Source: Caulobacteraceae bacterium PMMR1 (GTDB taxonomy: Bacteria > Pseudomonadota > Alphaproteobacteria > Caulobacterales > Caulobacteraceae). From it: DNA of 64,000 nucleotides. The translations under genes and the position numbers were made by a program. Location: the NCBI GenBank assembly GCA_000733915.1, contig JPOM01000001.1, positions 62,001 through 126,000 on the forward strand, written 5' to 3'. Shown one piece after another: positions 1-18,246 of this stretch. The notes below the pieces were generated by a model. It was not told the origin of the DNA and did not search any database. It worked only from the letters and a program-made list of their open reading frames with translations. Within the stretch, counting starts at the first letter, position 1. Each line of letters opens with the position of its first letter.

Positions 1-584
1 AGGGTCCAGTTCGGATCGGCGCTGCCCAAGGTGCGCTCGAAGGTCCAGACCTCGGCGGTGCGGCGATCGTCCACGCCTTCGCCCCGCGCGTCCTTGGTCC
101 GCGTGCGCAGTTCCGCCAAGAAGCGCACCTTCACCCGGGCGATGTCGCCCTGGATTTCCGCGCCCTCGGCATCCGCTCGGGGCCCGGAGAGGAGCTCGAC
201 CTGCTCGGTGCGCTGGGCGGCTTCCCGATCCGCGATCGCCCGGTCAAAGGCGCTGAACACGGCCGGCGAGGTGAAGCGCCGAAGGGTCGAGCGGTCTCCG
301 GCGGCGAACGCCTTGACGATCATCTCATAGGCGCCCCGGGCGCCTTCCAGGAAGCGGGCGGGATCAAAGCTCGGCTCCCGCGCTGCGATCGCCTGCAGGC
401 CCGCGCGCTCGGGCGACAGCTCCGCCGCGGGCTCCGCCTTTCGAGCGGCCTGAGTCGCAGGCCGCGCGCGGCCGTCCGGCGGGTCGCCGGGCTGGCGACC
501 GATCCGCTTGCCCAGGATGGCGTAGAACTGGAACAGCAGCACGCCGGCCAGGGCCGCGAAGATCACGAGAATGAACAGCTGCAA
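1..584 (-). CDS. Tim44-like domain protein (3' end outside window)
   Basis: The minus-strand reading begins at a TTG codon (582-584) with a single hydrophobic segment (LQLFILVIFAALAGVLL), followed by a charged linker rich in Arg, Pro and Ala, then a Tim44/TimA-like region containing FDPARFLEGARGAYEMIV, LRRFTSPAVFSAFDRAI and a long AEIQGDIARVKVRF strand region. The family consists of membrane-anchored proteins of unclear bacterial function, commonly found divergent from secB near the origin in Caulobacterales. No ATG is available in frame, so the TTG start, which puts the membrane segment at residue 1, is the best choice. The C-terminus lies beyond base 1. About 194 codons are visible. Confidence 0.75.
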   Translation of the reverse strand, partial: MQLFILVIFAALAGVLLFQFYAILGKRIGRQPGDPPDGRARPATQAARKAEPAAELSPERAGLQAIAAREPSFDPARFLEGARGAYEMIVKAFAAGDRSTLRRFTSPAVFSAFDRAIADREAAQRTEQVELLSGPRADAEGAEIQGDIARVKVRFLAELRTRTKDARGEGVDDRRTAEVWTFERTLGSADPNWT

Positions 585-765
585 GGCGGACCACCGATAA
601 GCGTCGGCGCGCGGCAGGGCGCCGCGCCCGGGGGCAATATAGGCCCCTTGCGGCGAATCGACAGCCCCGCGCCTGCCCGGCGCTGCGGGACCTGCGCAGG
701 TTGCTAGGCGCCCGCCCCGCGTGTTAGCCCGCCCGCCTGTCTCCCTGGAAAGCTATAGCCCTCCC

Positions 766-1254
766 ATGACCGACACCGGCGCTGCCGAAACCCAGACTCC
801 CGAGGCGGCGCCCGCCATCCGCGTCCTGGCCCAATTCGTCCGCGACTTCTCCTTCGAGAACCCGCGCGCGCCGGACAGCCTGCGCCTGACCTCGCAGCCC
901 TCCATCGAGCTCGGGGTGGAGCTCAGCGCCCGCGGGCGCCCGGACGGTCTGTTCGAGCTGGACCTGAAGATGTCGGCCACCGCCAAGACCGACACCGACA
1001 CCCAGTTCCAGGCGGAGCTGGTCTATGGCGGCCTATTCGAAATCCAGGGCGTCCCGGAGGAGCAGATCGAGCCGATGCTGATGGTGGAGTGCCCGCGGTT
1101 CCTCTTCCCGTTCGCCCGCCGGATCATCGCGGACGCGACCGTCGAGGGCGGCTTCCCGCCTCTGATGCTGGAGCCGATCGATTTCGGGGCGCTCTACATG
1201 GCCCAACTGCAGCAGCGCGAGCAGGGCGTCGCGCCGCCCTCGGCGCTGAACTGA
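766..1254 (+). CDS. secB: Protein-export chaperone SecB
   Basis: 162 aa. SecB is the tetrameric cytoplasmic chaperone that holds preproteins unfolded and hands them to SecA. The family core is visible: [32 protein letters not shown], the [18 protein letters not shown] strand-turn, then [13 protein letters not shown] and LYMAQLQ near the C-terminus. The upstream in-frame GTG (721) would add 15 residues without family resemblance, so the ATG at 766 is preferred. It is divergent from the Tim44-like gene and convergent with dnaQ, matching the order seen beside the Caulobacter origin. Confidence 0.95.
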
Positions 1255-1265
1255 GCGCGACGGCC

Positions 1266-1994
1266 TTAGGGTCTGGCGGGGGTGAGCCGGGCCCAGGCGT
1301 CGGGGGTCCAAAGCGCCTTGTCCTTCAGCACGCTCGTCACGAAGCGGTCGTGCGCCTCGCGCTCGGTCGCAGTCAGGCGGGGCGCGAGTGGTCGCGGGCG
1401 CGGGCCATAGCCGCCGCGGTTCGCCGCCTCGAGCGCCACCGTCGACTCGGCCGGTCCGAGTTCCAGCGCCCGTTCGCGCCCGCCCTGAAGCTCCAGATAG
1501 ACCATGGCGAGCAGGCGCGTGTCGATCAGGGCGCCGTGCTTCTCGCGCTCCGCCAGGCTGATCTTGAAGCGTTTGCAGAGCGCATCCAGGGAGTTGTACA
1601 TGCCCGGAAAGCGCTGCTGCGCCATGACGAGGGTGCAGCGCCAGCGCGGCTCCGGTAGCGGCGCACGCCCGACCCGCTCCAGCTCGTGATTGAGGAAGCC
1701 TCGGTCGAAGGCGGCGTTGTGCGCGATCAGCGGCGCCTCGCCGATGAACTCCAGCAAGCCGTCGCACACGTCAGGGTCGGCGAAAACCGGCTTGTCGGAC
1801 AGGAACTTGCGGGACAGGCCGTGAACCTTCTCCGCCTCGGGGTCGATGTCCCGCTCGGGGTTCACATAGCGATGGAAGTGCCGCCCGGTGGGCAGATAGT
1901 CCTCGATCTCGATGCAGGCGATTTCGATCAGGCGATGCCCGCTGCGGGGGTCGATGCCCGTCGTTTCCGTGTCGAGGACGATCTCGCGCCGCAT
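1266..1994 (-). CDS. dnaQ: DNA polymerase III epsilon subunit (3'-5' exonuclease)
   Basis: 242 aa proofreading exonuclease of the replicative polymerase. The N-terminal ExoI motif DTETTG holds the catalytic Asp and Glu (residues about 8-10); ExoII is at LIAHNAAFDRGFLNHEL, and ExoIII contains the HGALIDTRLLA segment. The C-terminal tail after the exonuclease fold (about residues 175-242) is the usual polymerase-binding extension. It belongs to the leftward run with coaE, aroE, maf and ppsR and reads away from the origin. A gap of 43 bases separates it from coaE. Confidence 0.95.
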   Translation of the reverse strand: MRREIVLDTETTGIDPRSGHRLIEIACIEIEDYLPTGRHFHRYVNPERDIDPEAEKVHGLSRKFLSDKPVFADPDVCDGLLEFIGEAPLIAHNAAFDRGFLNHELERVGRAPLPEPRWRCTLVMAQQRFPGMYNSLDALCKRFKISLAEREKHGALIDTRLLAMVYLELQGGRERALELGPAESTVALEAANRGGYGPRPRPLAPRLTATEREAHDRFVTSVLKDKALWTPDAWARLTPARP

Positions 1995-2037
1995 AGGACT
2001 CTGATTGGCCTGCGTCGGCGCGTCCGTAAAGCGCGCG

Positions 2038-2664
2038 TCAGGTCGCGGCGCGCCGGTCCCGAGGCGGGACCCAGTCGGGCGCGGTCACCTCGGCGAGGAT
2101 CCGGGCCACCTCGGCGCGCACCGGCTCGAGGCCCGCGCCGGTGTCGATGACGTAATCGGCGCGCCCGCGCTTTTCGGCGTCGGCGAGCTGGCGCGCGAGA
2201 AGGGCGTCGAGCGTCTCGGGCGTGATGCCGGGGCGCTCCAGCACCCGGGCGCGCTGGACCGACTCGGGCGCGGAGACGACCACCACCGCATCGACCTGCC
2301 GATCGCCGCCGGTCTCGAACAGCAGCGGCACGTCCAGCACCGCGACCTTGGCCCCCGAGGCGAGCGCCCGGGCGTGGAAGCCGTCCCGCGCCGCGGCGAG
2401 CAGCGGGTGCACGAGGGCTTCGAGCCGCGCCATGGCCGGCGGATCGCCGACAACCCTGGCCGCGAGGCGGGTGCGGTCCACCGCTCCGTCCACCACGACG
2501 CCGGGGAAGGCCGCCTCCACCGGGCCGACCGCCGCCCCGCCCGGACCGTAGAGGGCGTGCACCGCGGCGTCCGCATCGTAGACCGCCGCTCCGGCCTCGG
2601 CGAACAGGCGCGCGGTGGTCGACTTGCCCATGCCGATGGAGCCCGTGAGGCCCAGCACGATCAT
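2038..2664 (-). CDS. coaE: Dephospho-CoA kinase
   Basis: 208 aa. Catalyses the last step of coenzyme A synthesis, ATP-dependent phosphorylation of the 3'-OH of dephospho-CoA. The P-loop [12 protein letters not shown] is at residues 5-16, followed by YDADAAVH (substrate Asp), then DVPLLFETG and VVVSAPE typical of CoaE. Length is normal. Its start codon overlaps the aroE stop by 4 bases, so coaE and aroE are almost certainly co-transcribed and translationally coupled. Confidence 0.95.
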
Positions 2665-3524
2665 GCGGCGGCTTCCAGGGCTTCAAGGCAGAGGGCGCGG
2701 ACGTCGATGACCTCCGGCCCCGGCGGCGCACAGCCGAGCATCGCCTGAAACGACGGGCCCGCCTGGCCGATCAGCATGGCGAGGCCATCGACCGTCGCGA
2801 GCCCGCGCGCCGCCGCCCCCTGCAGGAGCCCGGTGCGGAGCGGGCGGTAGACCATGTCCATCACGACCGCGTCGCCGGGCGCGAGCTCCAGCGGCAGGTC
2901 GAGCTCGGGCGCGCCGTCTAGCCCCAGCGAGGTCGCGTTGACGATCAGGTCCACATCGGCGAGCGCCTCGCCCCAAGCGCCCCAGCCTATGGCGCGCGCG
3001 CGGGCGCCGAACAGGGCGGCCAGCGCCTGGGCGCGCTCCGCGCTGCGGTTGACGATCCGGACCTCTCCCGCGTGGGCCGCGAGCAGGGCCGCGACCGCGC
3101 CCCGCGCAGCGCCGCCCGCGCCCAGCACGCACACCCGAGCTCGAGGAAGGCTCAGGCCGGGCGCCTGCGCCGCGAGGGCCGAGAGCAAGCCCAAGCCATC
3201 GGTATTGCGGGCGACCGCGGCGTTGTCGGGGGTGAACAGCAGGAGGTTCGCCGCCCCGGCCGCCTCCGCCGCCGCGTCGACGCGGTCCGCCAAGCGCAAG
3301 GCAATCTCCTTGAACGGCAAGGTGATGTTCAGCCCAAGGAACACGCCGTCGCGCCCCGCCTCGATCAGGGCGCCGAAGCGGTCAGGCGTCGCGGGCAGGG
3401 CGACATAGACGGCGTCGATCCCCGCCGCCTCCAGCCAGGCGTTGTGGATCAATGGGCTGAGGGAATGGGCCACCGGCTGTCCGATCACGCCGGCCAGACG
3501 GGTCGCGCCCGTGATCCGTCTCAT
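2661..3524 (-). CDS. aroE: Shikimate dehydrogenase (NADP+)
   Basis: 287 aa. Reduces 3-dehydroshikimate to shikimate in aromatic amino-acid synthesis. The N-terminal substrate domain shows [19 protein letters not shown] and LNITLPFKE (catalytic Lys); the NADP domain shows [10 protein letters not shown] and VNRSAERA. A longer frame exists upstream, but the ATG at 3524 fits family length and creates an ATGA overlap with the maf stop. Part of the tightly packed ppsR-maf-aroE-coaE-dnaQ block. Confidence 0.94.
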
Positions 3525-4111
3525 GCGGCAAGCTCTCCCGCGGCGCGCAGCCACGCCATGAGCGGGATCAGGGGCAGGCCCAGGACCGCATGCCAGTCGC
3601 CCTCGACCCGGTCGAACAGCCCCACGCCCCGCCCCTCGATGCGGTAGGCCCCGACGCTGGCTGTCGCCGCCTCGCCCTCGGTGTGCAGATAGGTGTCGAG
3701 CCAGGCCTCGCTGAAGGCCCGAACGGTCAGGCTCACCGTCTCGACGTGCCGCCAGACCGGCTGGCCGCTCCTGGCCGCGACCACCGCGGCGTGCAGCCGG
3801 TGCGTCCGGCCGCGGAGCGCCATCAGCTGCGCCCGCGCATGCGCCACGCTGTGGGGCTTGCTGAGCAGGGCGCCGTCGAGGTCCAGCGTCTGGTCCGATC
3901 CGACCACGAGGGCGGCGGGTTCGCGCACCGACAGCTTCACCGCCTTGGCCTCGGCCAGGGCGTCGGCCACCTCCCTGGGGCCCAGCCCCTCGGCGAGCAG
4001 GCCGGCCTTCAGCGCATCCTCGTCCACTCCGGGCGCCGCGGCGCGGAAGGGCACGCCGGCGGACTCCAGCAAGGCTTTGCGCGTGGGGCTGGTGGACGCC
4101 AGCAGGATCAC
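3521..4111 (-). CDS. maf: Maf-family nucleoside triphosphate pyrophosphatase
   Basis: 196 aa. Maf proteins hydrolyse non-canonical or modified NTPs to monophosphates (house cleaning) and have been linked to division arrest. The opening ASTSPTRKALLESAG is the family signature; VVGSDQTLDLDG and SKPHSVAHARAQL carry the metal/substrate Asp and Lys residues. It overlaps aroE by 4 bases and ppsR by 4 bases, so the three genes form one transcription unit. The exact nucleotide preference (YhdE- or YceF-like) cannot be settled by eye. Confidence 0.92.
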   Translation of the reverse strand: MILLASTSPTRKALLESAGVPFRAAAPGVDEDALKAGLLAEGLGPREVADALAEAKAVKLSVREPAALVVGSDQTLDLDGALLSKPHSVAHARAQLMALRGRTHRLHAAVVAARSGQPVWRHVETVSLTVRAFSEAWLDTYLHTEGEAATASVGAYRIEGRGVGLFDRVEGDWHAVLGLPLIPLMAWLRAAGELAA

Positions 4112-4965
4112 GCCGGCGCCTCGGTCAGGGGCGCGCCGGCGGCCCGCGCGTTCAGGAGCGCGATGATGGCCGCTGCGGTCTCCTCCACCGAGCGGCGGGT
4201 CACGTCGATCACCGGCCAGCCAGCCCGGTCGAACAGGCGACGCGCCTTCACCGTCTCCTCCCGCACGGCGTCCACATCGACATAGGCGCTCTCGCGTTGC
4301 TCGTTCAGCGACAGGAGCCGGTTGCGGCGGATCTGGATCAAGCGGTCCGGCGACACCACGAGGCCCACGATCAAGGGCCGGGTCAGCTCGAACAGCGCGG
4401 CCGGCGGCTCGCGCCCCGGCACCAGCGGCACATTGGCGGCGCGCACGCCGCGGTGGGCGAGATAGATCGAGGTCGGCGTCTTGGAGGTACGGCTGACCCC
4501 GACCAGGATCACGTCCGCAGTCTCCAGGTTCTGCGTGCCCTGGCCGTCGTCATGGCCGATGGCGTAGTTCAGGGCCTCGATGCGGTTGAAGTACTCGGTG
4601 TCGAGCGCATGCTGCGCGCCGACGCGTGTGCTGAGCGACGCCCCGAGGTAGCGTCCAAAGGCCGCCGTCATGGGATCGAGCGCGGCGATGCAGGGGGTGT
4701 CCAGGTCGCGGCAGCCCTGCTCCAGCACGCCGCGCAGCTCCCGATCGATCATGGTGTGCACGACTACGCCCGGTGCGGCCTCCACCTCGCGCAGCACCCG
4801 CTCCAGCTGTCGGGCCGAGCGCACGAGCGGATAGAGGTGCTCGATGGGCAGCACAGCGTCGAACCGGGCGCACACCGCCTTGGTCATGGCGTTCAGGGTC
4901 TCGCCGGTGGAATCGGAGACCAGGTGGACGTGGAAATAGGTCGCGAGGGGGGGGCCGGGCGGCAT
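4108..4965 (-). CDS. ppsR: Pyruvate, water dikinase / PPDK regulatory protein (DUF299)
   Basis: 285 aa from the ATG at 4965. The family are bifunctional ADP-dependent kinases/phosphorylases that switch PEP synthase or pyruvate phosphate dikinase off and on. The N-terminus carries the family signature FHVHLVSDSTGETL, and the P-loop-like GVSRTSKTPTSIYLAHRG lies near residue 155. A longer frame reaches 5157, but the added 64 residues lack family resemblance and would run into the origin. It is the first gene leftward of the putative origin, the same position as in Caulobacter crescentus. Confidence 0.9.
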   Translation of the reverse strand: MPPGPPLATYFHVHLVSDSTGETLNAMTKAVCARFDAVLPIEHLYPLVRSARQLERVLREVEAAPGVVVHTMIDRELRGVLEQGCRDLDTPCIAALDPMTAAFGRYLGASLSTRVGAQHALDTEYFNRIEALNYAIGHDDGQGTQNLETADVILVGVSRTSKTPTSIYLAHRGVRAANVPLVPGREPPAALFELTRPLIVGLVVSPDRLIQIRRNRLLSLNEQRESAYVDVDAVREETVKARRLFDRAGWPVIDVTRRSVEETAAAIIALLNARAAGAPLTEAPA

Positions 4966-5235
4966 GGAAAGCTGGGCTGCGTCAGCGGGCCGCAGCGGCG
5001 GGCTGGGCAGGACGGCGGGGACGAAACGGCATGGCGCGCCTTGGCAGGCTGGGGACGAGGCGGGAGCCCCTGGGGAGAAAAGCCGCTTTCGCCGTCCGCG
5101 CCAAGAGCCGTCTGGAATTGCGGGCGCCGCAGCCGCTTCCCATCGACGCCCGCTCAAGCTTCACCACAGGCGTTCTCGACAGCTGTGCGCGCGCACCCTC
5201 GCAGTCTGCGACCCACCGCGCTCACCGTCCGAAGG

Positions 5236-5251
5236 TTAACGAAATCCTAAC
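5236..5251 (+). promoter_or_regulatory. CtrA-type box in origin (site a)
   Basis: Reads TTAA-N7-CTAAC, one mismatch from the CtrA consensus TTAA-N7-TTAAC. Lies 15 bases before a second such box. In Caulobacter, CtrA bound at the origin blocks replication in swarmer cells; binding here is inferred from the motif only. Confidence 0.65.
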
Positions 5252-5265
5252 GGCCGGTCAGGGTC

Positions 5266-5281
5266 TTAGCGGTTCGTTAAC
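5266..5281 (+). promoter_or_regulatory. CtrA-type box in origin (site b)
   Basis: Reads TTAG-N7-TTAAC, again one mismatch from consensus. Its last base is next to the DnaA-like CCTGTCCACAGG palindrome (5282-5293), so CtrA and DnaA could compete here as they do at the Caulobacter origin. Confidence 0.65.
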
Positions 5282-5546
5282 CCTGTCCACAGGTGCGACA
5301 GTTCCAGCGCGCCCCAAGATCGGAGTCGCACGGCGCCGCCGCATCTCCGCGCAGGGGTGCGACCCGGTCATCCCCACAATCCGCACGCCTTCTTCCTGCT
5401 CCTGACAAGACCAATCTCCCAGACAAGAGAAAGAACAGGCGAGGCCGTGAACCGGGGCGCTTGAGCGATCGCGCCCGGCGGGCTTTAAGGGCGATCATGC
5501 GCCAGACGCCGACGCCGGTCCGACATCCCGCCCAGGAGGGCCGCCG

Positions 5547-6602
5547 TTGAGACTGGCGGTGGTGCTCTTCAACCTGGGCGGACCGGATCGGCCGGAAGCG
5601 GTCAGGCCCTTCCTGTTCAACCTCTTCAACGATCCCGCCATCGTCAGCGCGCCCTGGCCCGTGAGGCCGCTCTTGGCGCGGCTGATCTCCACCACGCGGG
5701 AGAAGCCGGCTCAGGCGAACTACGCCCTGATGGGCGGCCGCTCCCCCCTCTTGCCGGAGACGGAGAGCCAGGCTGTGGCGCTGAAGGCGGCGCTCCAAGC
5801 CCGGCGACTGGGCGACGAGATCGGGGTGTTCGTCGCGATGCGCTACTGGTCGCCCCTGACGCAGGATACGGCGCACCAGGTGGCGGCGTTCCGGCCCGAC
5901 CGGGTTGTGCTGCTGCCGCTCTATCCGCAGTTTTCGACCACCACGACGGGCAGCTCGCGCAAGGCCTGGATCGAAAGCTACCGCGGACCGGGGGAGGTGT
6001 CGGAGATTTGCTGCTACCCCGAGGCCGAGGGCCTGGTGGCGGCCCACGCCGCACGGATCCTGGCGACCTGGACCAAGGCGGGGCGGCCCGGGAACGTGCG
6101 GGTGCTGTTCTCCGCCCACGGCCTGCCCGAGCGGGTGGTCCAGGGCGGCGATCCCTATCAGGACCAGGTCGAGCGCACCTGCCGCGCGGTGGCGCAAGCG
6201 TTGCGAGGCGACTGGGCGGGACCCCTGGACTGGCAGGTCTGCTACCAGAGCCGCGTGGGGCCCCTGAAGTGGATCGGCCCCTCCACGCCCGAGGCGCTGG
6301 AAGGTGCGGCGCGGGACGGCAAAGGGGTGCTGGTCACGCCCATCGCCTTCGTGTCCGAGCACGTGGAGACCCTGGTCGAGCTCGACCACGAATATGCCGC
6401 CATGGCCCGGGACCTGGGCATCGCGCCCTTTCTGCGCGCGCCCGCCCTTGGGGTGGAGCCCGCGTTCATCGACGGCTTGACGGATGCGGTGCAGCACGCC
6501 GCGGCGCGGGGCGGGGTCGGGCCCTTGGGCCGCGCCTGCGACGCCTGCTTCAGCCAGTGCCCCGTGCGCCGGGCCGCTGACCAGGGGAAGCAAGCCGCCT
6601 GA
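5547..6602 (+). CDS. hemH: Ferrochelatase
   Basis: 351 aa. Inserts Fe2+ into protoporphyrin IX, the last step of protoheme synthesis. A strong Shine-Dalgarno AGGAGGG (5534-5540) sits six bases before a TTG start. The family motif VLFSAHGLPERVV with the metal-site His is at about residues 188-200, and the conserved NLGGPDRPEAVRPFL opening is present. The C-terminus GRACDACFSQCP has three clustered Cys, like the [2Fe-2S] ligands reported for Caulobacter ferrochelatase; another candidate Cys is in the EICCYPE segment. The stop overlaps the hemJ ATG by one base. It is directly next to the putative origin, where Caulobacter has hemE. Confidence 0.93.
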   Translation: MRLAVVLFNLGGPDRPEAVRPFLFNLFNDPAIVSAPWPVRPLLARLISTTREKPAQANYALMGGRSPLLPETESQAVALKAALQARRLGDEIGVFVAMRYWSPLTQDTAHQVAAFRPDRVVLLPLYPQFSTTTTGSSRKAWIESYRGPGEVSEICCYPEAEGLVAAHAARILATWTKAGRPGNVRVLFSAHGLPERVVQGGDPYQDQVERTCRAVAQALRGDWAGPLDWQVCYQSRVGPLKWIGPSTPEALEGAARDGKGVLVTPIAFVSEHVETLVELDHEYAAMARDLGIAPFLRAPALGVEPAFIDGLTDAVQHAAARGGVGPLGRACDACFSQCPVRRAADQGKQAA

Positions 6603-7063
6603 TGGGAACCGTCTATGATTGGCTGAGGGGCCTGCACATCTTGGCGGTGATCGCCTGGATGGCCGGCCTGCTCATGCTGCCGCGAGTGTTCGTCTACCAC
6701 ATGAGCGCAGAGCCCGGCTCGCGCATGGACCAGGTGTTCAAGGATGCGGAGCGGCGGATTTTCAGCATCATCCTGAACCCGGCCATGATCCTGTCGCTGG
6801 TTCTGGGCCTGACCCTGATCTGGTACGACGCGACCTATATGCGGCCCGAGGGCTGGGGCTTCCTGAAGAAGCCCTGGATGATCACCAAGCTGGCGGGGGT
6901 TGTGTTCCTGCTGGGGTGGCACCACTTCCTGGGCCGCAGTCGCAAACGCTTCGCTGCGGACGCCAACACGCGATCCGAAAAGTTCTGGCGCCTGACCAAC
7001 GAGCTGCCGTTCATCGCGGCCATCGTCATGGTTTTGGCGGTCACCACCGAGTTCGGGAACTGA
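6602..7063 (+). CDS. hemJ: Protoporphyrinogen IX oxidase HemJ
   Basis: 153 aa integral membrane protein with about four hydrophobic helices. HemJ oxidises protoporphyrinogen IX to protoporphyrin IX, feeding ferrochelatase. Family features seen: a His in the first helix (LRGLHILAVIAWMAGLLMLPR), the YHMSAEPGS loop, the conserved WMITKLAGVVFLLGWHHFLG helix with Lys and His residues, and the RLTNELPFIAAIVMV helix. One-base overlap with hemH indicates translational coupling of the two terminal heme steps. Confidence 0.92.
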   Translation: MGTVYDWLRGLHILAVIAWMAGLLMLPRVFVYHMSAEPGSRMDQVFKDAERRIFSIILNPAMILSLVLGLTLIWYDATYMRPEGWGFLKKPWMITKLAGVVFLLGWHHFLGRSRKRFAADANTRSEKFWRLTNELPFIAAIVMVLAVTTEFGN

Positions 7064-7327
7064 CCCCGCGCTCGGGCGCGCCGTGATCGAACGGGTCGCT
7101 TGACCTTGCGCCGCGCATGTGGTTCCGCTGAGTGCAGTCGGTCGGGCGCGACCGGCTCCCCGCCTCTCCCCGACATCCGACGGCTTTCGCCGCCCTGACG
7201 CACTCAGGGCCGATCGCCCGGCGGCTCTGTCCCATCGCAATCGCTCCCGGCGGCGCCTGGCGTCGCCTTCGGACCGCCCCCCTGGCCCGCCGAGCTCGGC
7301 GCGCGCCAATCGAGCCTGAACACGCCC

Positions 7328-8649
<1,322 letters not shown>

Positions 8650-8656
<7 letters not shown>

Positions 8657-8935
8657 GGCGCCCGGCCCCCCGTGGCAGTTCGAGCAGACCATGTCGAAGT
8701 GCCGGGCCGCCAGCTCCATGCGGCCCTCCGCGTCCAGGTCGTCAAGGGCGTCACCCGGCTCGCGGCGAAGGCTTCGCTGCGCTTGAAGACGAAATGCAGG
8801 AGGTGGGCGATGAGCCAGCTGTCCGGTCGGTCCGCCGACACGTCCACCCGCCCACGCCGACGAACAGCCCCACCGCCAGGGCCAGGATCGCGCCAGCCGC
8901 CAACCGGTCCGGCCGCGGCCAGCGCGCAACGTTTG
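8650..8935 (-). pseudogene. Remnant of a membrane-anchored cytochrome c
   Basis: Three successive minus-strand frames together spell a cytochrome c N-terminal half: a membrane anchor (LAAGAILALAVGLFVGVGG), then DVSADRPDSWLIAHLLHFVFKRSEAFAAS, then DALDDLDAEGRMELAARHFDMVCSNCHGGPG with the heme-binding CxxCH. Each change of frame is explained by one missing base in a GGG run. The similarity stops right after the heme motif, where the frame runs into the convergent 3' end of rho, so the distal axial-ligand Met region is lost. The family (HWP...W.LHFVMRRS...GHF...C..CHG) is familiar from alphaproteobacterial diheme cytochromes. No good start codon is visible. Confidence 0.7.
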
Positions 8936-9008
8936 AACGACGTCGGAGCGGCCCAGCGACGGATCGAGAACCAGCTGAGCCGGGCTTTGTTCCTTTAGGG
9001 CAGCCGCT

Positions 9009-9989
9009 TCAGGGCAGCAGCAGGGTCGAGCCGGTGGTCTCGCGCGCCTCCAGCGCCTCGTGCGCCCGGCGCGCCTCCTCGAGGCGGAAGGTCTGGCCGA
9101 TGTCGATCCTGACCTTGCCGGACGTGACGACCTCGAACAGGGCGCTCGCGCTCTCCTCCAGCTCCGCGCGGGTCGCGACATAGTCGAAGAGCGTGGGCCG
9201 GGTGAGGTAGAGCGAGCCGCCTTGGCTCAGCCGCAGAGGCTGGATCGGCGGGACGGGGCCGGAGGCGTTGCCGAAGCTGACCAGCATGCCGCGCCGCCGC
9301 AGGCTCTTCAGCGATCCGTCGAAGGTCGCGGCGCCGATCCCGTCATAGACGACCGCCACCCCTTCGCCGCCCGTGATCGCCTTCACGCGCTCGGCCACGT
9401 CCTCTTCACGATAGAGGATGAGGTGATCACAGCCGTTCCGCCGGGCCACCTCCGCCTTGGCCTCCGAGCCCACCGTCCCGATGACCTCCGCCCCGAGGGC
9501 CTTGGCCCACTGCGTCATGATCTGGCCGACGCCGCCCGAGGCGGCATGGATCAGCACCGGGTCGCCCGGTCTGACCGGGTAGCACCGGCAAAGCAGGAAC
9601 TCCGCCGTCATGCCCTTCAGCATCATGGCCGCGGCCTTGCGGGCGTCGAGTCCGTCGGGCAGGGCGACGACGCGGTCCTCCGGCGCCACGTGGAACTCGG
9701 CATAGGCGCCTAGGGGCCCGTTTCCGAACGCGACCCGGTCTCCGACCTTGTGCAGCCGCACCCCCGGCCCGACGGCGTCCACGACGCCTGCGCCCTCCAG
9801 GCCCAGCACCGCGGGCATCTTCACTGGGTAAAGACCGGCCCGCTGATAGGTGTCGATATAGTTGAGCCCGATCGCCTCGAGCCGGATGCGGACCTCGCCG
9901 GGGCCGGGCTCAGGGATCGGCCGCTCGACCAGCTCCAGCACCTCCGGCCCGCCGGCCGCCCGCGCCTGCACCGCGCGCATGGTCGTCAT
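9009..9989 (-). CDS. NADPH:quinone oxidoreductase (zinc-independent MDR family)
   Basis: 326 aa. Medium-chain dehydrogenase/reductase of the quinone-reductase branch: GGPEVLELVERPIPEPGPGEV and IGLNYIDTYQRAGLY at the N-terminus, the nucleotide-binding stretch HAASGGVGQIMTQWAKALGAEVIG, and GIGAATFDGSLKSLRRRGMLVSFG. There are no structural-zinc Cys clusters, consistent with a quinone or enone reductase rather than an alcohol dehydrogenase. The ATG at 9989 overlaps the dienelactone hydrolase stop (ATGA), so the two are coupled. A second in-frame ATG at 9980 is possible. The physiological substrate is unknown. Confidence 0.88.
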   Translation of the reverse strand: MTTMRAVQARAAGGPEVLELVERPIPEPGPGEVRIRLEAIGLNYIDTYQRAGLYPVKMPAVLGLEGAGVVDAVGPGVRLHKVGDRVAFGNGPLGAYAEFHVAPEDRVVALPDGLDARKAAAMMLKGMTAEFLLCRCYPVRPGDPVLIHAASGGVGQIMTQWAKALGAEVIGTVGSEAKAEVARRNGCDHLILYREEDVAERVKAITGGEGVAVVYDGIGAATFDGSLKSLRRRGMLVSFGNASGPVPPIQPLRLSQGGSLYLTRPTLFDYVATRAELEESASALFEVVTSGKVRIDIGQTFRLEEARRAHEALEARETTGSTLLLP

Positions 9990-10684
9990 GCCAGGTTCGC
10001 CTTGAAGAAGTCGGACGTGCGCTGATTGGCCAGCTCCGCATCCGCTCGGTCGTAATTCTGGCCGCCCGGACGCGCGAAGGCGTGGTCGCGGCCGGGGTAG
10101 GTGTGCAGGGTCACCTGGCGATGGTCCTTCAGGGCGGCGATGATCCGCGCCTGCGCCGCCTTCGGCACGAAGCCGTCCTCCTCGGCGATGTGCAGCATCA
10201 GAGGCCGCGCCAGGCGCTCGGCCTCGCCGAGGTGGTTCTCGATCCCCACGCCATAGTAGCTGACCGTCGCGTCGCTGTCGGTGCGGGTCGCGGTCAGGAA
10301 GGCCAGCAGGCCGCCCAGGCAATAGCCCACCGCGCCAACCTTGCCGTTGCAGCCCGGGTCGGCCCGCACGGCGGCCAGGGTTGCGGCGATGTCCTCCACG
10401 CCCGTCTCCACGTCGAAGGCGTTGTAGAGCTCAAAGGCGCGCTTCCACTCCGCTTCGGACTGGTCAGTGATGTCGATGCCCGGCTCGATGCGCCAGAAGA
10501 GGTCGGGGGCGACCGCCAGGTAGCCCTCCCCGGCGAGGCGGTCGGCGACCTCGCGCACCACCGCATTCACGCCGAAGATCTCCTGGATCACGACGATCGC
10601 CGGCCCCCGCGCCGCCTTTGGCCGCGCCACATAGGCCTTGAACGCACCGTCCTTCGCAGAAATCGTGAGGCTCTCGCCGGTCAT
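9986..10684 (-). CDS. Dienelactone hydrolase family protein
   Basis: 232 aa alpha/beta hydrolase of the dienelactone-hydrolase family. The Cys nucleophile elbow GYCLGG replaces the usual Ser; the catalytic His lies in [11 protein letters not shown], and the acidic member is expected in [12 protein letters not shown]. The opening [28 protein letters not shown] is typical. In aromatic degradation such enzymes open dienelactones, but many members are general carboxyesterases and no ring-cleavage genes are nearby. It overlaps the downstream quinone reductase by 4 bases. Confidence 0.9.
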
Positions 10685-10759
10685 GCTCTTGCGTCCTTCG
10701 CAGGCGTTGGGGATGGGGAGCCTGCGGGCGCAGGCGCGCGACAACGAGGGCCGAGGGCG

Positions 10760-11020
10760 ATGAAAGTCAAGGTGGAGATCGACTGCACCCCGGTGGAGGC
10801 CCGCACCTTCCTGGGCCTGCCCGATGTGACGGGCCTGAACAGCCATCTGGTGGCGGAGATGACCCGGCGCATGGACGCCAACATGGCCCTGCTGAAGCCC
10901 GAGGAGCTGATGAAGAGCTGGATGGCCTTCGGCGGCCAGGCGCAGGAGCAATTCCGCCAGCTGATGACCGCCGCCGCCGGGGCGGGGCTGGCGGGCGCGG
11001 GACGACCGCCGCGGGAATGA
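10760..11020 (+). CDS. Small DUF6489-like protein
   Basis: 86 aa cytoplasmic protein beginning [27 protein letters not shown], with a helix that ends [18 protein letters not shown] and an Ala/Gly-rich tail. Proteins like this sit directly upstream of mnmE in Caulobacterales and are classed as DUF6489; no function is established. A GAGGG ribosome site precedes the ATG, and the stop overlaps the mnmE start (ATGA), so co-translation with mnmE is expected. Confidence 0.8.
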
Positions 11021-12345
11021 GGGACACCATCCAGGCGCTCGCGACCGCGCCCGGACGCGCAGCGATCGCCGTCGTGCGGGTGTCCGGCCCGCGCACCGCC
11101 GAGGTGCTGAAGGCTCTGGGCGCCGGACCGCCGGCCCCGCGGCGACTGTCGCTGCGGCGCCTGCGCGACCCCGACAGCGGCGCCCTGCTGGACGCCGCCA
11201 TGGCCGTCTACATGCCCGGGCCGAACAGCTTCACCGGCGAGGACGCGGCGGAGCTGCATCTGCATGGGGGCCGGGCGGTGGTCCAGGGCGTCGCCGCGGC
11301 GCTCTCCCGCCTGGGCGTGCGCCTGGCGGAGCCCGGGGAGTTCACGCGCCGGGCCTTCGAGGCGGGGCGGCTGGACCTTACGGAGGCGGAGGCCGTCGCC
11401 GACCTGGTGGACGCCGAAACCGAGGCGCAGCGACGCCAGGCCCTGGCCCAGCTCGCGGGCGGCCTGGCGGCGGCGCAGGCGCGCTGGCGGGACGCCTTGC
11501 TCGACGCCCTGGCCAGCCTGGAGGCGGCGGTCGACTTCCCTGACGAGGATCTGCCGGCCGAGGTCGAGGCCCGGGCGCGCGAGCCGCTAGAGACGCTCCG
11601 GCGCGAGCTCGCCCGCGCGGCCGCCGACACCCGGGGGGACAAGGTCCGCGACGGCCTGCGCGTCGCCCTGATCGGGGCGGCGAACGCGGGCAAGTCGAGC
11701 CTCTTCAACGCGCTTCTGGAGCGCGAGGCGGCGATCGTGACCGCCGAGGCCGGGACGACCCGGGATGTCCTGGAGGCGCCCCTGGACCTGGCCGGCTATC
11801 GCGTATGGCTGGCGGACATGGCGGGCCTGCGCGAGACGGGGCACGCCATCGAGGCCGAGGGGGTCCGCCGGGCGCGGGCCTGGGCCGAGGCGGCGGACCT
11901 GCGGCTCTGGGTGGTGGACGCCAGCGTCTCGTCGGGCGCCTGGCGGGAAGCGGCCGAGCTCGTGCGTCCCGACGACCTCCTGGTGCTGAACAAGGCGGAC
12001 CTGCCGAGGGGACGCGACGCCGAGGCGGCCGCAGCCCTCGGCCTGCAGAAGCTGAGCGTGAGCGCGGTCGACCCCGCCCCGCTGCGCGCCGCGCTGGAGG
12101 CTGAGGCGGTCGCGCGGCTCGGGACCGGCGAGCCCGCCCTCGCCACCCGGGAACGTCACCGGGCGCTGCTGGCCGACGCCGTCGCGCACCTCGACCGCGC
12201 CCGGGAGTCCCTGCGCGAGCAGAGCCCCGAGCTGGCCGCAGAGGATGTGCGCCTCGCCGCTCGGGCGCTGGAGCGGCTGTCTGGGCGCATCGGCCCCGAG
12301 GCTGTGCTGGACCGCATCTTCGGCCGGTTCTGCATCGGCAAATAG
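11017..12345 (+). CDS. mnmE: tRNA uridine-5-carboxymethylaminomethyl modification GTPase MnmE
   Basis: 442 aa. With MnmG it makes the cmnm5 modification at U34 of several tRNAs. N-terminal folate-binding domain ([35 protein letters not shown]), central G domain with [15 protein letters not shown] (G1), TTRDV (G2/G3 area), DMAGLRET (G3) and NKAD (G4), and the C-terminal FCIGK tail whose Cys is essential in the family. Followed by two parS sites and mnmG. Confidence 0.96.
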
Positions 12346-12354
12346 CGTCCGAGA

Positions 12355-12370
12355 TGTTTCACGTGAAACA
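12355..12370 (+). promoter_or_regulatory. parS site 1
   Basis: TGTTTCACGTGAAACA: a perfect 16-base palindrome matching the bacterial parS consensus (TGTTNCACGTGAAACA). ParB loads here and spreads as a CTP-dependent clamp. It lies about 7.1 kb from the putative origin and 2.6 kb upstream of parA. Confidence 0.95.
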
Positions 12371-12404
12371 TGGGCCGGGACCGAGGACCGGCGCTGCGCG
12401 GCCT

Positions 12405-12420
12405 TGTTCCACGTGAAACA
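12405..12420 (+). promoter_or_regulatory. parS site 2
   Basis: TGTTCCACGTGAAACA, consensus parS, start-to-start 50 bases from site 1. Both sites lie in the 123-base mnmE-mnmG gap, so the centromere doubles as the mnmG leader/promoter region. Confidence 0.95.
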
Positions 12421-12468
12421 CAGGGGCGTGCGCTCGACCCTGGGGCCGGGGCGCCCTAGATTACCGGC

Positions 12469-14343
12469 ATGAGGTCCTGGGACGTCATCGTCATCGGCGG
12501 GGGGCACGCCGGCTGCGAGGCCGCGGCGGCCGCGGCGCGCGTGGGCGCTTGCACCCTGCTGCTCACGCACAGGATCGAGACCATCGGCGAGATGTCCTGC
12601 AACCCGGCCATCGGCGGGCTGGGCAAGGGCCACCTCGTGCGCGAAATCGACGCCCTGGACGGCCTGATGGGACGGCTCGCCGATGAGGCCGGCATCCAGT
12701 TCCGCCTGCTGAACCGGTCCAAGGGCCCCGCCGTCCGCGGCCCGCGGGCCCAGATCGACCGGCGTCTCTATCGCGAGGCCATGCAGGCCGAGGTTCTCGC
12801 CTACCCCAATCTCCGGGTCGAGGCCGCGGCCGTGGAGGACCTGATCGTGGAGGGCGGCCGCGTGGCGGGCGTGCTCGCCGGCGACGGCCGGAGCTGGCGC
12901 GCGCCGCGGGTCGTGCTCACCACCGGGACCTTCCTAGACGGCGTGATCCACCGCGGCGAGGCGCGCATCCCGGCGGGGCGGTATGGCGAGGCCCCCGCCA
13001 TCGGCCTCGCCAAGCGCCTCTATTCGGCCGGCTTCGCCATGGGCCGGCTGAAGACAGGCACTCCCGCACGGCTGGATGGCCGCACCATCGACTGGGACCG
13101 CGTGGAGCGGCAGGAGGGCGACGGCGAGCCCACGCCCTTCTCGTTCCTGAGCCCGCCGATCCTCCGGCCCCAGGTCGCGTGCGGCGTCACCCAGACCACC
13201 GAGGCCACCCACCGCATCATCGCCGCCCACCTCGGCGAATCCGCGGTCTACGGCGGTCGGGCGACGGGACGGGGGCCGCGCTACTGCCCCTCCATCGAGG
13301 ACAAGGTCGTCCGCTTCGCCGACAAGACCAGCCACCAGGTGTTCCTGGAGCCCGAGGGCCTGGACGACGACACCGTCTATCCGAACGGCGTCTCAACCTC
13401 GGTCGGCGAGGCGACTCAGCTCGCCTTCCTGCGCACCATCCCGGGGCTGGAGCGGGTGCAGGTGCGCCGCTACGGCTACGCCATCGAGTACGACTACGTC
13501 GATCCGCGCGAGCTCTTTGCGACGCTCGAGACCAAGCGCCTGCCAGGGCTCTACCTCGCCGGCCAGATCAACGGCACCACGGGCTACGAGGAGGCGGCCG
13601 CTCAGGGTCTGGTCGCCGGGCTGAACGCCGCGCGGGCGGCCGGCGGCGGGGAGGGGGCGAGCTTCGGCCGGGACCAGGCCTACATCGGGGTGATGATCGA
13701 CGACCTAGTGACCCGGGGCGTGACCGAGCCCTACCGTATGTTCACGAGCCGGGCGGAGTTCCGCCTGACGCTGCGGGCCGACAACGCCGACCAGCGCCTC
13801 ACCGACATTGGGATCGCCCTCGGCCTGGTCGGGCCGGCGCGAGCGAGGGCCTGGCGCGCCAAGTCGCAAGCCCTATCGGCCGCCCGGGAGCAGGCCCGCG
13901 CGTTCAGCCTCACCCCGGCCGAAGCCGCCCGCGCCGGCCTGCCGGTCCGCGCCGACGGCCAGCGCCGGAACGTGATGCAGCTCCTCGCCTTCCCGACCAT
14001 CAACTTCGCCCAGCTCGCCGCGATTTGGCCCGAGCTCGGCCAGTGGTCGCCAGAGGTGCGCGAGCAGGTCGAGATCGATGCGGCCTACTGCGGCTACCTC
14101 GACCGCCAGGCGGCGGACGCCGAGGCGTTCCGGCGCGATGAGGACCTGCGGCTGCCGCCCGATCTCGACTATGCGAGCATCGGCGGTCTCTCCAAGGAGT
14201 GCCAGGAAAAGCTGGCGGCGGTGCGACCGCTTACCCTCGGCCAGGCCGGGCGGATCGAAGGCGTCACCCCCGGCGCACTCACCGCGCTTCTGGCGCACGT
14301 GCGACGGCCGGCGGCGGTGCGGTCCGCGCCCTCCGCCGCGTGA
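12469..14343 (+). CDS. mnmG: tRNA uridine-5-carboxymethylaminomethyl modification enzyme MnmG (GidA)
   Basis: 624 aa FAD protein, partner of MnmE. The FAD-binding [18 protein letters not shown] is at residues 8-25, then [42 protein letters not shown] with the GTPAR core, and [15 protein letters not shown]. The C-terminal helical domain ends with [18 protein letters not shown], the MnmE-binding region. Stop overlaps the rsmG GTG start (GTGA). Confidence 0.97.
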
Positions 14344-14969
14344 TCCCGCCCGACGATGCGGACGCCTTCGCCGCCGCGACCGGGGCGACGCCCGTCCAGA
14401 TGGCGGACCTACTGCGCTACCGGGAGCTGCTGCAGGACTGGAACGGCCGCATGAACCTGGTCGGCCCCTCGGCCCTGGCGAGCTTTTGGCCCCGTCACGC
14501 CTATGACAGCGCGCAGCTGCTCGGCCTGGCCCCCGACGCGCGGGTGTGGGCCGACCTCGGCACGGGCGCGGGCCTGCCGGGCGTCGTGCTCGCCATCCTG
14601 CTCAAGGGCCGCGAGGGCGCGCGCGTGCACCTGGTCGAGAGCCTCGCCAAGCGCTGCCGCTTCCTGGGCGAGGTCGTCGCCGCGCTCGACCTCCCCGCAG
14701 AGGTCCACAACGCCCGCGCCGAAGCGGTGATGATCCCAGAGCCGGTGGACATTGTGACCGCGCGCGCCCTGGCGCCCTTCGCCCGACTTCTGGGCTATGC
14801 TTTCCCCCTGCTGCGGTCGGGCGCGACCGGCTTGTTCCTGAAAGGCCAGGGCGTGGACGAGGAGATCACCGAGGCGCGGCGCAGCTGGCGGTTCCAGGCC
14901 GAACTCCTGCCAAGCGCGTCCAGCGACACAGGGCGGATCGTGAAGGTGACGGGGCTCGCCCGTGCCTGA
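14340..14969 (+). CDS. rsmG: 16S rRNA (guanine527-N7)-methyltransferase RsmG (GidB)
   Basis: 209 aa from the GTG at 14340, which overlaps the mnmG stop. SAM-dependent methylation of G527 of 16S rRNA. Motifs: [20 protein letters not shown], the SAM site [33 protein letters not shown], and [20 protein letters not shown]. The usual mnmG-rsmG-parA-parB order supports this. The 3' end overlaps parA by 8 bases. Confidence 0.95.
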
Positions 14970-15780
14970 GCCGACGTCGCCGCCGCCTCCCCGCGTCCTC
15001 GCCATCGCCAATCAGAAGGGCGGCGTGGGCAAGACCACGACGGCGATCAATCTCGCCACCGCCCTAGCCGCCATCGGCGAGCGCACCCTGATCCTGGACG
15101 TGGACCCGCAGGGCAACGCCTCGACGGGCCTGGGCGTGCCCCGGACAGCGCGCAAGCGGACGATCTACGACGTGCTGGTGGAGGGCGAGACCCTGCCCGC
15201 CGCCATCGTCCCCACCGCCGTGCCGGGCCTGGACCTGGTGCCGGCCGACCCGGAGCTCTCGGGCGTGGAGGTCGAGCTCGCCCAGCAGCCCCGCCGCTCC
15301 TATCGCCTGCGCGACGCCCTAGCGGGGCTCGCCGAGGTCCGCCCGCCCTACGCCTATGTGCTGGTGGACTGCCCGCCGTCGCTGAACCTGCTCACCGTCA
15401 ACGCCATGACGGCGGCGGACGCGGTGCTGGTGCCGCTCCAGACCGAGTTCTTCGCGCTCGAGGGGCTGAGCCAGCTCATGCGCACGGTGGACCTGGTCCG
15501 GCAGAGCCTGAACCCGCGGCTGACCATCCAGGGCGTGGTGCTGACCATGTACGACCGGCGCAACAGCCTATCCGACCAGGTGGCGAGGGACGTGCGCGCC
15601 CACTTCGGCGACACGGTCTATGAGACGGTGATCCCTCGGAACGTGCGGGTCTCCGAGGCGCCGTCCTTCGGCAAGCCGGCGCTGATCTACGATCTGAAGT
15701 GCGCCGGCAGCCAGGCCTATCTGAAGCTGGCGCGGGAGCTGGTCGCCCGGGAGCGGGCGCGGAAGAAGGCGGCGGCATAG
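14962..15780 (+). CDS. parA: Chromosome partitioning ATPase ParA
   Basis: 272 aa Walker-type ATPase that drives segregation of ParB-parS complexes toward the pole. The deviant Walker A KGGVGKTTTAINLATALA with the signature Lys is at about residues 19-36; DVDPQGNASTGLG, LVDCPPSLNLLTVNAM and the FFALEGLSQL region follow. GTG start overlapping rsmG; parB starts immediately after its stop. Short N-terminal extension ([11 protein letters not shown]). Orphan MinD or plasmid ParA is unlikely because parB and parS are adjacent. Confidence 0.96.
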   Translation: MPEPTSPPPPRVLAIANQKGGVGKTTTAINLATALAAIGERTLILDVDPQGNASTGLGVPRTARKRTIYDVLVEGETLPAAIVPTAVPGLDLVPADPELSGVEVELAQQPRRSYRLRDALAGLAEVRPPYAYVLVDCPPSLNLLTVNAMTAADAVLVPLQTEFFALEGLSQLMRTVDLVRQSLNPRLTIQGVVLTMYDRRNSLSDQVARDVRAHFGDTVYETVIPRNVRVSEAPSFGKPALIYDLKCAGSQAYLKLARELVARERARKKAAA

Positions 15781-16674
15781 GTGGCGGAACGGCAACGAGG
15801 TCTGGGGCGGGGGCTGGCGGCCCTGCTGGGCGAGGCGGACGCTGCGGCGGTGGAGGCGACGGGCGTCGCCGCGCCGGCGCCCGCGGGCGTGCGCGAGATC
15901 CCCATCGAGCTGATCCGGCGCAACGCCGACCAGCCGCGCCGCACCTTCGACGAAGCGGAGCTGGAGGAGCTGGCGAGCTCGGTCCGGGAGCGCGGCGTCC
16001 TGCAGCCCATCCTGGTGCGGCCCGCCCCGGGCGCGGACGGCGAGTACCAGATCGTCGCCGGCGAGCGACGCTGGCGCGCGGCGCAGCGGGCGGGCATGCG
16101 CGCGGTGCCCGCGGTCGTGCGCACGCTGGATGACATCGAGGTGCTGGAGATCGGCATCATTGAGAACGTCCAGCGCGCCGACCTCAATCCCCTCGAAGAG
16201 GCGCAGGCCTATAGGGCGCTGATCGATCGCTTCGGGCGCACCCAGGACGCGGTGGCCCAGACCGTGGGCAAGAGCCGCAGCCACGTGGCCAATGCGCTTC
16301 GCCTGCTGGCCCTGCCCCAAACCGTGCGCGAGCACCTGGCCGCCGGGCGTCTCAGCGCCGGCCATGCCCGCGCCATCGCCGCCGCCCCCGATCCGGAGCG
16401 CCTGGCCCAGCGGATCGTGGAGCGCGGCCTGTCGGTGCGCGACGCCGAGGCCCTCGCCCGCGAGAGCGTCCGCTCGCCCTCGCCCGACGCCCCCGCCCGC
16501 GCGCCGTCGATTCCCAAGAGGTCGCCGGACACCGCTGCGCTCGAAAGCGACCTTTCCGACCTGCTGGGCCTGAAGGTCGAGATCCTCGACCGCCGCGGCC
16601 GGGGCGAGGTCCGCGTCCACTACGGCTCCCTGGAGCAGCTGGACGAGGTCTGCCGGCGTCTCAGCGGCGGCTGA
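15781..16674 (+). CDS. parB: Chromosome partitioning protein ParB (CTPase clamp)
   Basis: 297 aa. The N-terminus RQRGLGRGLAALLGEA contains the ParA-stimulating Arg region; the CTP-binding domain shows PRRTFDEAELEELASSVRERGVLQPILVRP and GERRWRAAQRAGM (GERR motif, about residues 94-97), then ENVQRADLNPLEEA and the helix-turn-helix GKSRSHVANALRLLALP that reads parS. The C-terminal dimerisation domain follows a short linker (residues about 235-297). GTG start, no gap to parA. Convergent with holA, eight bases apart. Confidence 0.96.
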   Translation: MAERQRGLGRGLAALLGEADAAAVEATGVAAPAPAGVREIPIELIRRNADQPRRTFDEAELEELASSVRERGVLQPILVRPAPGADGEYQIVAGERRWRAAQRAGMRAVPAVVRTLDDIEVLEIGIIENVQRADLNPLEEAQAYRALIDRFGRTQDAVAQTVGKSRSHVANALRLLALPQTVREHLAAGRLSAGHARAIAAAPDPERLAQRIVERGLSVRDAEALARESVRSPSPDAPARAPSIPKRSPDTAALESDLSDLLGLKVEILDRRGRGEVRVHYGSLEQLDEVCRRLSGG

Positions 16675-16682
16675 TCCGGCCC

Positions 16683-17738: not shown

Positions 17739-17754
17739 CCGGCCCGTGCCCGCA

Positions 17755-18246
17755 TCACACGCCGGGGTGGGCGGCGAACCAGCGCGACAGCTCCAGGCGC
17801 AGCTGGACGGCGGCCTGGGTCGCGGCGCGCTCCTCCGCGTCCTGCTCGGCCTGCAGCCCGGCGTAGGGCGGATCGGCGGAGGCGTAGGACACCTGAACCA
17901 GGGTCGAGCCCTGGGTCGCCACCCGGTTCGTGGCCGCCTCGGTCAGGGTGTAGCCCACCGTCACGTCGAGCTCGTAGCGGGAGGCGACGTTGTTCACGCG
18001 TACGCCGCGCGCCGCCCGCACGACCCGCGTCGTCACCGACAGGCGATAGCGCGCGGGCGCGTCGGAGCGGGCGAACGCGTTCCCGAGCTGCTCGCGCATC
18101 AGGAAACCCAGCCGGGTCTGGGGCGTGTCGGCCACCTGCACGGCGCTGAGCGCCGGTCCGACGCCGGTCCTCTCGGCATAGAGGGGCTCGAAACCGCAGG
18201 CCGCCAGGAGCGGGACCATCGCCAGCAGGGGGAGGGCGGCCCGCAT
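17755..18246 (-). CDS. lptE: LPS-assembly lipoprotein LptE
   Basis: 163 aa. A signal peptide with lipobox (LLAACGFEPLYAERTG) directs it to the outer membrane, where LptE plugs the LptD barrel for lipopolysaccharide insertion. The GFEPLY start is a hallmark of alphaproteobacterial LptE; the QTRLGFLMREQLGNAF and YELDVTVGYTLTEAATN segments fit the family. Start overlaps the leuS stop (TGATG), so leuS-lptE-holA is an operon. Confidence 0.9.
   Translation of the reverse strand: MRAALPLLAMVPLLAACGFEPLYAERTGVGPALSAVQVADTPQTRLGFLMREQLGNAFARSDAPARYRLSVTTRVVRAARGVRVNNVASRYELDVTVGYTLTEAATNRVATQGSTLVQVSYASADPPYAGLQAEQDAEERAATQAAVQLRLELSRWFAAHPGV

Follow-up and report, generated by a model that had tools for sequence, protein, structure and literature searches.

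In this Caulobacteraceae genome, ppsR and hemH are separated by 581 bases, and this gap is very likely the chromosome replication origin, of the type known as Cori in Caulobacter. The original prediction of an origin at this place, read from sequence, is supported by the motifs in the gap, its position, the gene order around it, the neighboring parS sites and parAB genes, and a similar module in relatives; from these we infer origin function. We treat the gap as one that works like, and descends from, a Cori, and the absence of hemE from its side as a derived loss. The window analyzed here is a stretch of 64,000 bases, positions 62001-126000 of a single contig of 2,673,433 bases that is estimated to be 99.91% complete and that was treated as circular. 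Coordinates of single features are those of the window unless the contig is named; the gap lies at 67.2 kb of the contig. The features of the gap and its boundaries are as follows.

4966..5546, no strand: proposed origin (Cori-type), intergenic region of 581 bases from ppsR to hemH
4108..4965, minus strand: ppsR (Kinase-PPPase, PF03618; Pfam, 305 bits)
5547..6602, plus strand: hemH (ferrochelatase), the right boundary gene in place of hemE (PF00762, 344 bits)
5050..5055, minus strand: TCCCCA element (W-box-like), from a motif scan
5071..5076, minus strand: TCCCCA element (W-box-like), from a motif scan
5371..5376, plus strand: TCCCCA element (W-box-like), from a motif scan
5236..5250, no strand: CtrA-like box 1, TTAACGAAATCCTAA, one mismatch to TTAA-N7-TTAA
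5266..5280, no strand: CtrA-like box 2, TTAGCGGTTCGTTAA, one mismatch to TTAA-N7-TTAA
5283..5291, plus strand: DnaA-box-like CTGTCCACA, two mismatches from TTATCCACA, 2 bases past CtrA box 2
5461..5488, plus strand: TTGAG-N18-TTTAA, putative former hemE promoter of the leaderless type, now upstream of hemH
5497..5550, plus strand: mini-ORF of 17 codons, probable remnant of the hemE start and stop, its TGA overlapping the TTG start of hemH

No exact TTAA-N7-TTAA box occurs in the gap. The two boxes with one mismatch each, separated by a spacer of 15 bases, had been predicted in this form, and both reading and a script confirmed them. The three TCCCCA elements (presumably W-box sequences) and a single GANTC site, at 5323, were also found where they had been claimed, and the boundary genes do point outward, ppsR on the minus and hemH on the plus strand. 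For the scoring of CTGTCCACA, we took TTATCCACA to be the DnaA box consensus. The prediction had further placed a DnaA-box-like palindrome next to the CtrA boxes. This interrupted inverted repeat, CCTGTCCACAGG, is present at 5282-5293 and has CTGTCCACA inside it, but as a palindrome it is nothing special: it occurs twice on the plus strand of the 1.264 Mb of the genome that were sampled, and it is not retained across 15 aligned rows of gap sequences. The meaningful element is therefore the DnaA-like box and not the palindrome. The gap has a slightly lower GC content than the window (68.5% vs 71.8%), and its best match to WATCAANNNNTTR, which we take to be the IHF site consensus, has three mismatches. 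A terminator scan gave one hit against 0.7 expected, a scan of 4900-5700 with a simple sigma-70 consensus found no promoter, and the gap had no match in a plasmid collection.

Chance is a poor explanation for the main sites. Two CtrA-like boxes arose in none of 2000 dinucleotide shuffles of the gap, and at least three TCCCCA elements in 4 of 1000; GANTC is not enriched (one seen, 2.2 expected). Genome-wide, 58 places match the CtrA pattern with at most one mismatch, compared with 20 for the pattern read backward as a control. Only two pairs of such places in the whole genome have starts within 45 bases of each other, the pair of the gap (67236/67266 of the contig) and one at 941975/941992, and within the 1.264 Mb sample the gap pair alone of these two has TCCACA beside it. 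A further pair, at 2635487/2635535, has its starts 48 bases apart.

The same module recurs in relatives. A search for ppsR matched 59 of 60 genomes, our own included. The set compared comprised 111 loci with ppsR and the gap, 80 of which are the best 80 of 114 in one search; the remaining 31 are the organism's own locus and those obtained for 30 of the 59 genome matches of the ppsR search. By exact sequence, the 111 loci reduce to 101 distinct gaps, some of them from close relatives. At least one CtrA-like box is present in 98 of these 101 sampled gaps, against a mean of 7.75 in a Markov control, and at least two in 83, against 0.9; the gaps of L114, L115 and L126 are those that have none. In 29 of the 101, a CtrA-like box has TCCACA no more than 25 bases away (0.05 in the control). 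Counted with no control, TCCACA occurs on either strand in 70 of the 101, and TGGGGA in the first 170 bases, on the ppsR side, in 79. Five loci (L067, L079, L087, L095 and L102) share our layout: the starts of two CtrA boxes are 28-30 bases apart, and ATCCACA comes directly after the pair; in L014, TTCACA takes its place.

An alignment of 15 hand-picked gaps, with columns counted by eye, places these elements relative to one another. TCCACA stands at the position of our DnaA-like box in 11 of the 15 rows. A CtrA-like sequence is aligned with box 1 (5236-5250) in most rows and with box 2 (5266-5280) in six: our own, L067, L014, L079, L087 and L102. The TCCCCA of 5371 is exact in six rows and retained as TCCCC in most. 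The elements at 5050 and 5071 are not found in the relatives' columns, where TGGGGA on the ppsR side is spaced otherwise. Our gap resembles the ppsR-hemE gaps of Phenylobacterium and other Caulobacteraceae (for example L067, L079, L087) in the CtrA pair followed by a DnaA-like box, in having TCCCCA elements on both sides and in CTTGAG near the hem gene. Those ppsR-hemE gaps differ in boxes nearer to consensus, in the presence of hemE and in the spacing of the ppsR-side TCCCCA; the origin module in Caulobacteraceae gaps varies among genera. Of 14 loci from other families of the order, 13 allowed both genes to be read, and the gaps of all 13 hold at least one CtrA-like box, a count made without a control in gaps that are mostly AT-richer. 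A review describes CtrA sites as rare outside the origins of freshwater Caulobacter (PMC4468827); the boxes in these 13 gaps run counter to the rarity stated there.

The neighborhood of the gap also points to an origin. Reading leftward, it is followed by ppsR, maf, aroE, coaE, a DnaQ-type exonuclease gene and secB; rightward come hemH, a UPF0093 gene, which we take to be hemJ, and rho. We take ppsR to be COG1806, a boundary gene of Cori-type origins. By their coordinates, compared by eye, ppsR and hemE are less than 0.65 kb apart in 32 of 37 genomes, which makes the gap of the window their syntenic equivalent. The partition genes lie nearby:

12355..12370, no strand: parS, exact TGTTTCACGTGAAACA (0.03 expected at up to three mismatches)
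12405..12420, no strand: parS, one mismatch
14962..15780, plus strand: parA, named from its translation
15781..16674, plus strand: parB, named from its translation

We take TGTTTCACGTGAAACA to be the parS motif. The two sites are 50 bases apart, between mnmE-like and mnmG-like genes (names from translations), and parS and parAB together lie 7-12 kb from the gap. The genome also encodes the presumed regulators. The CtrA gene, at 544941 of the contig, scores 413.5 bits against a cut-off of 350; we note a CtrA-like box at 545826-545840, about 0.2 kb upstream of ctrA (544941-545612, minus strand), as in a self-regulated ctrA promoter. On a circular contig, the single DnaA gene (2589891) would lie some 150 kb away from the gap.

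Strand composition points elsewhere. The prediction had offered cumulative GC skew as a check, with its minimum expected at the gap, and this was not borne out: as estimated from 63 stretches covering 1.264 Mb, or 47% of the genome, raw cumulative skew has its minimum at about 2.245 Mb of the contig, not at 67.2 kb, and its maximum at about 1.295 Mb. A score for gene direction with equal arms peaks at 2.2 Mb, where it reaches 0.086 of coding bases (0.048 at 50 kb). If the origin is set at 67.2 kb, there is almost no excess of genes in either direction (227:212 on the right arm, 160:159 on the left). The polarity of GGGNAGGG, which we take to be the E. coli KOPS motif, places a freely fitted origin at 2.22-2.28 Mb with a score of 127, whereas the best score with the origin fixed at 67.2 kb is 95. 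An 8-mer skew has weak maxima at 1.16-1.28 and 2.46-2.60 Mb and was left out of the verdict. Together, these results raise the possibility that the true origin is at about 2.25 Mb and that the gap is a promoter region controlled by CtrA and DnaA, or a relic origin.

We consider this improbable. GC skew correlates with gene direction (r = -0.50), what remains after that correlation shows no difference between arms (p 0.25), and fourfold sites split by gene strand differ little between them. A relative with a standard ppsR-hemE gap, G018, is equally without GGGNAGGG polarity within 200 kb on each side (18:19 and 25:32) and has no clean skew switch at that gap. Because skew follows gene direction here and does not switch clearly in this relative, it is a poor locator, although we still count it as evidence against an origin at the gap. 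Replication starting at 2.25 Mb and ending at 1.33 Mb would also leave arms of about 66:34, and parS and the module seen in relatives sit at 67 kb. The GGGNAGGG switch itself is sharp at about 1.32-1.34 Mb, a terminus-like position roughly opposite the gap, whose antipode is 1.404 Mb if the contig is circular. The motif is strongly polar in the distal quarters (71:23 and 29:71; Fisher 6e-11) and not polar in the proximal ones (81:74 right, 44:34 left). When equal arms are imposed, GGGNAGGG puts the origin at 25 kb, with a score reached by one of 500 permutations.

Ortholog positions favor the gap over 2.25 Mb as well. Genes flanking the G018 gap have 43 reciprocal-best orthologs (at least 50% identity) outside the syntenic core; 30 of these are no farther than a quarter genome from 67.2 kb, against a background of 52%. 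Their mean distance gives p 0.0076 for 67.2 kb and 0.08 for 2.25 Mb; the best centers are at 0.08-0.22 Mb. Two other centers, 25 kb and 2.46 Mb, beat chance with p 0.017 each, and 0.43 Mb does so with p 0.04. We infer that the left side of the origin has been rearranged, rather than that the origin is at 2.25 Mb. In the 400 kb compared around the G018 gap, gene order is scrambled in our genome beyond about 20 kb, and an inversion as the cause of the skew pattern could not be demonstrated from that synteny. Two dif-type patterns identified no dif-like site: CGCATAA-N6-TTATGT with up to two mismatches matched four places, against two for the reversed control, and a looser pattern on the 47% sample matched three places with three mismatches, none near 1.33 Mb. 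An identical 19-base match from the dif search occurs at 9314 and 2662028 of the contig, about 21 kb apart across its ends, and the stretches 1-20000 and 2406001-2426000 are low in GC (0.637 and 0.531); both observations possibly reflect mobile or repeated DNA.

The sites could instead serve transcription, whether of the hem operon, of ppsR or of an RNA like CcnA, with any origin role secondary. CtrA boxes do also serve promoters, and the two roles are compatible with each other. A primarily transcriptional role is nevertheless very improbable: TCCACA keeps its aligned place in 11 of the 15 rows and lies close to CtrA-like boxes far more often than in the control, parS is nearby, and a search of 4000-7200 against Rfam gave two matches, both far under their gathering scores and so no Rfam RNA above the cut-offs.

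On balance, a Cori-type origin is the best reading of the CtrA pair that shuffling does not reproduce, the module in relatives, the synteny, parS/parAB, and the CtrA and DnaA genes; the GGGNAGGG switch near the antipode and the nearness of the orthologs to 67.2 kb also count for it. Against it we count the skew minimum, the gene direction and the free GGGNAGGG fit, which all fall at about 2.2-2.3 Mb, together with the 8-mer peaks, the lack of polarity in the proximal quarters and the other centers in the ortholog test. The imperfect CtrA and DnaA boxes, two CtrA boxes as against the five of Cori, an IHF match with at least three mismatches, and the failure of the search for a dif-like site are likewise entered on that side.

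The origins of C. crescentus and Rickettsia lie between hemE and COG1806 (PMC1914354). That study gives hemE as one boundary of all origins examined, and its table also has one putative Neorickettsia region without hemE. Cori itself contains five CtrA sites and, besides weak W-boxes, two G-boxes of moderate strength that overlap CtrA sites or lie near them; parS is found within 8 kb of it (PMC4468827). Compared by description, our gap with the genes and sites around it is like Cori in several ways: ppsR/COG1806 bounds one side and a hem gene the other, a moderate DnaA box is overlapped or adjoined by CtrA boxes, weak W-boxes are present, and parS is close by (about 7 kb). It is unlike Cori in its two imperfect CtrA boxes, in hemH for hemE, and in having no IHF site that a simple consensus recognizes. 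Its layout fits a reduced version of the Cori scheme. The origins of Rickettsia and Wolbachia were likewise recognized by boundary genes and by CtrA, DnaA and IHF sites, but here hemE, which is given as one of their boundary genes (PMC1914354), has been lost. In the same family, base 1 of the P. zucineum genome was placed at the putative origin (PMC2529317).

For C. crescentus, steric exclusion of DnaA by CtrA has been put forward as the simplest mechanism (PMC4468827). By analogy, DnaA may open the DNA after loading on the weak TCCCCA boxes and on the box at 5283-5291, and phosphorylated CtrA on the two boxes beside the latter would exclude DnaA in non-replicating cells. Such exclusion is proposed to allow one firing per chromosome per cycle. 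The nearby parS and ParAB would then move the new origin away. Binding, opening and firing at the gap are all read from the arrangement of the sites.

The clearest departure from the mapped Caulobacter origin concerns the hem gene. The gap had been predicted to lie, as that origin does, between ppsR and a hem gene; this holds, but the match with that origin is inexact since the hem gene is hemH and hemE is gone. The gene next to the gap is hemE in 93 of the 101 distinct sampled gaps and hemH in six, and two loci end too soon; hemE is thus absent from six of the 99 gaps with a readable neighbor, our own included. With hemE adjoining 93 gaps and missing from only five others, we treat its absence as a derived loss. 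The five exceptions to the closeness of ppsR and hemE are this genome, G019 (where the two are on different contigs), G015, G020, and G049, in which the contig ends. Two of these would be odd at their origins: these searches found no hemE in G015 and no ppsR in G020, each 98% complete. In G019, a native-type hemE lies near an isocitrate-lyase-like gene (named from its translation).

The sole URO-D (hemE) match in our genome is at 1694942-1695943 of the contig (L152), where it adjoins a DUF3422-like gene and hemC (names from translations). It is 86% identical to the hemE of G026, in which hemC (80%) also adjoins hemE, and 73% identical to that of G020, whereas identity to the native type reaches no more than about 57% among the matches listed. 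A search for a donor in a sample of the class (66 of 86 genomes matched) found none; besides our own genome, the best long matches reach 54% in other families and 56% in the same family (G002), and 60% identity to G083 extends over a piece of 97 residues only. This divergent hemE was possibly acquired from outside the family. We suggest that the hem operon beside the origin lost its hemE, that the divergent copy adjoining hemC at 1.69 Mb would now supply the enzyme, and that the apparent hemE promoter, the start codon and probably the stop codon were left behind and now lead into hemH.

Loss probably occurred more than once. In a tree of 30 rows built on ppsR and HemH, the six hemE-less rows need three changes on the best tree, and the starred branches force two. 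A single loss in the common ancestor of all hemE-less relatives is highly improbable: the six rows do share one neighborhood of ten (85/98 support), but one clade is rejected (AU p 5.6e-57), a single change occurs in 0% of 200 bootstrap trees, and L003, which still has an apparent shortened hemE frame, is sister to the hemE-bearing L056 with support of 100/100. L004, L007, L052 and L054 form a second hemE-less group, with a native-type hemE elsewhere in the genome.

What hemE left behind is recognizable from its counterparts. TTGAG-N18-TTTAA occurs in 81 of the 101 distinct sampled gaps, and its spacing is 18 in all 81 although 15-21 was allowed. Of the 77 hemE-bearing gaps that have the element, 50 show their projected hemE start 7-9 bases past it, and in the window (5461-5488) an ATG follows after 8 bases, at 5497. 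This geometry would be that of a leaderless transcript, and the fixed spacing before hemE suggests that the hemE transcript is leaderless across the family. The mini-ORF at 5497-5550 is probably a leftover of the hemE start and stop, and we make no coding claim for this predicted frame; the overlap of its TGA with the TTG of hemH resembles, by eye, the overlap of the hemE stop with the hemH start in L074, L079 and L087. In L003 (from G026), a short frame between the promoter element and hemH has first and last residues that are hemE-like by eye, as if most of hemE had been deleted in frame.

CTTGAG is present in six of six hemE-less gaps, and the full TTGAG-N18-TTTAA in three (L001, L007, L052). 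Cori gives rise to a noncoding RNA, CcnA, and for C. crescentus a figure legend describes hemE transcription as important to replication (PMC8959179, Fig 3). It is conceivable, if doubtful, that the hem-side promoter is a part of the origin and that CTTGAG is kept because its transcription helps firing, whatever gene is read. The plainer alternative, that the promoter is kept since hemH still needs it, is more likely, and retention of the promoter is for that reason no proof of an origin role.

This is very probably an ordinary Cori-type origin, and its hemE-less form is a modest variant, more noteworthy than the motifs themselves. A literature search by title and abstract, with subscription papers mostly outside its scope (among them the comparative study of Caulobacter origins that PMC4468827 cites), gave no report of hemE loss from an origin of this type; we make no claim of priority. 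This class of origin has been recognized by two landmark genes, of which hemE is one (PMC1914354). The position of hemE can mislead a search, as in the present genome, where the gene lies about 1.0 Mb from the gap around the circle. Lineages that lack hemE at this place yet retain the control module and the promoter element amount to natural deletion experiments. Should the gap indeed be the origin, the hemE gene itself would not be needed there, and the role of its promoter becomes testable.
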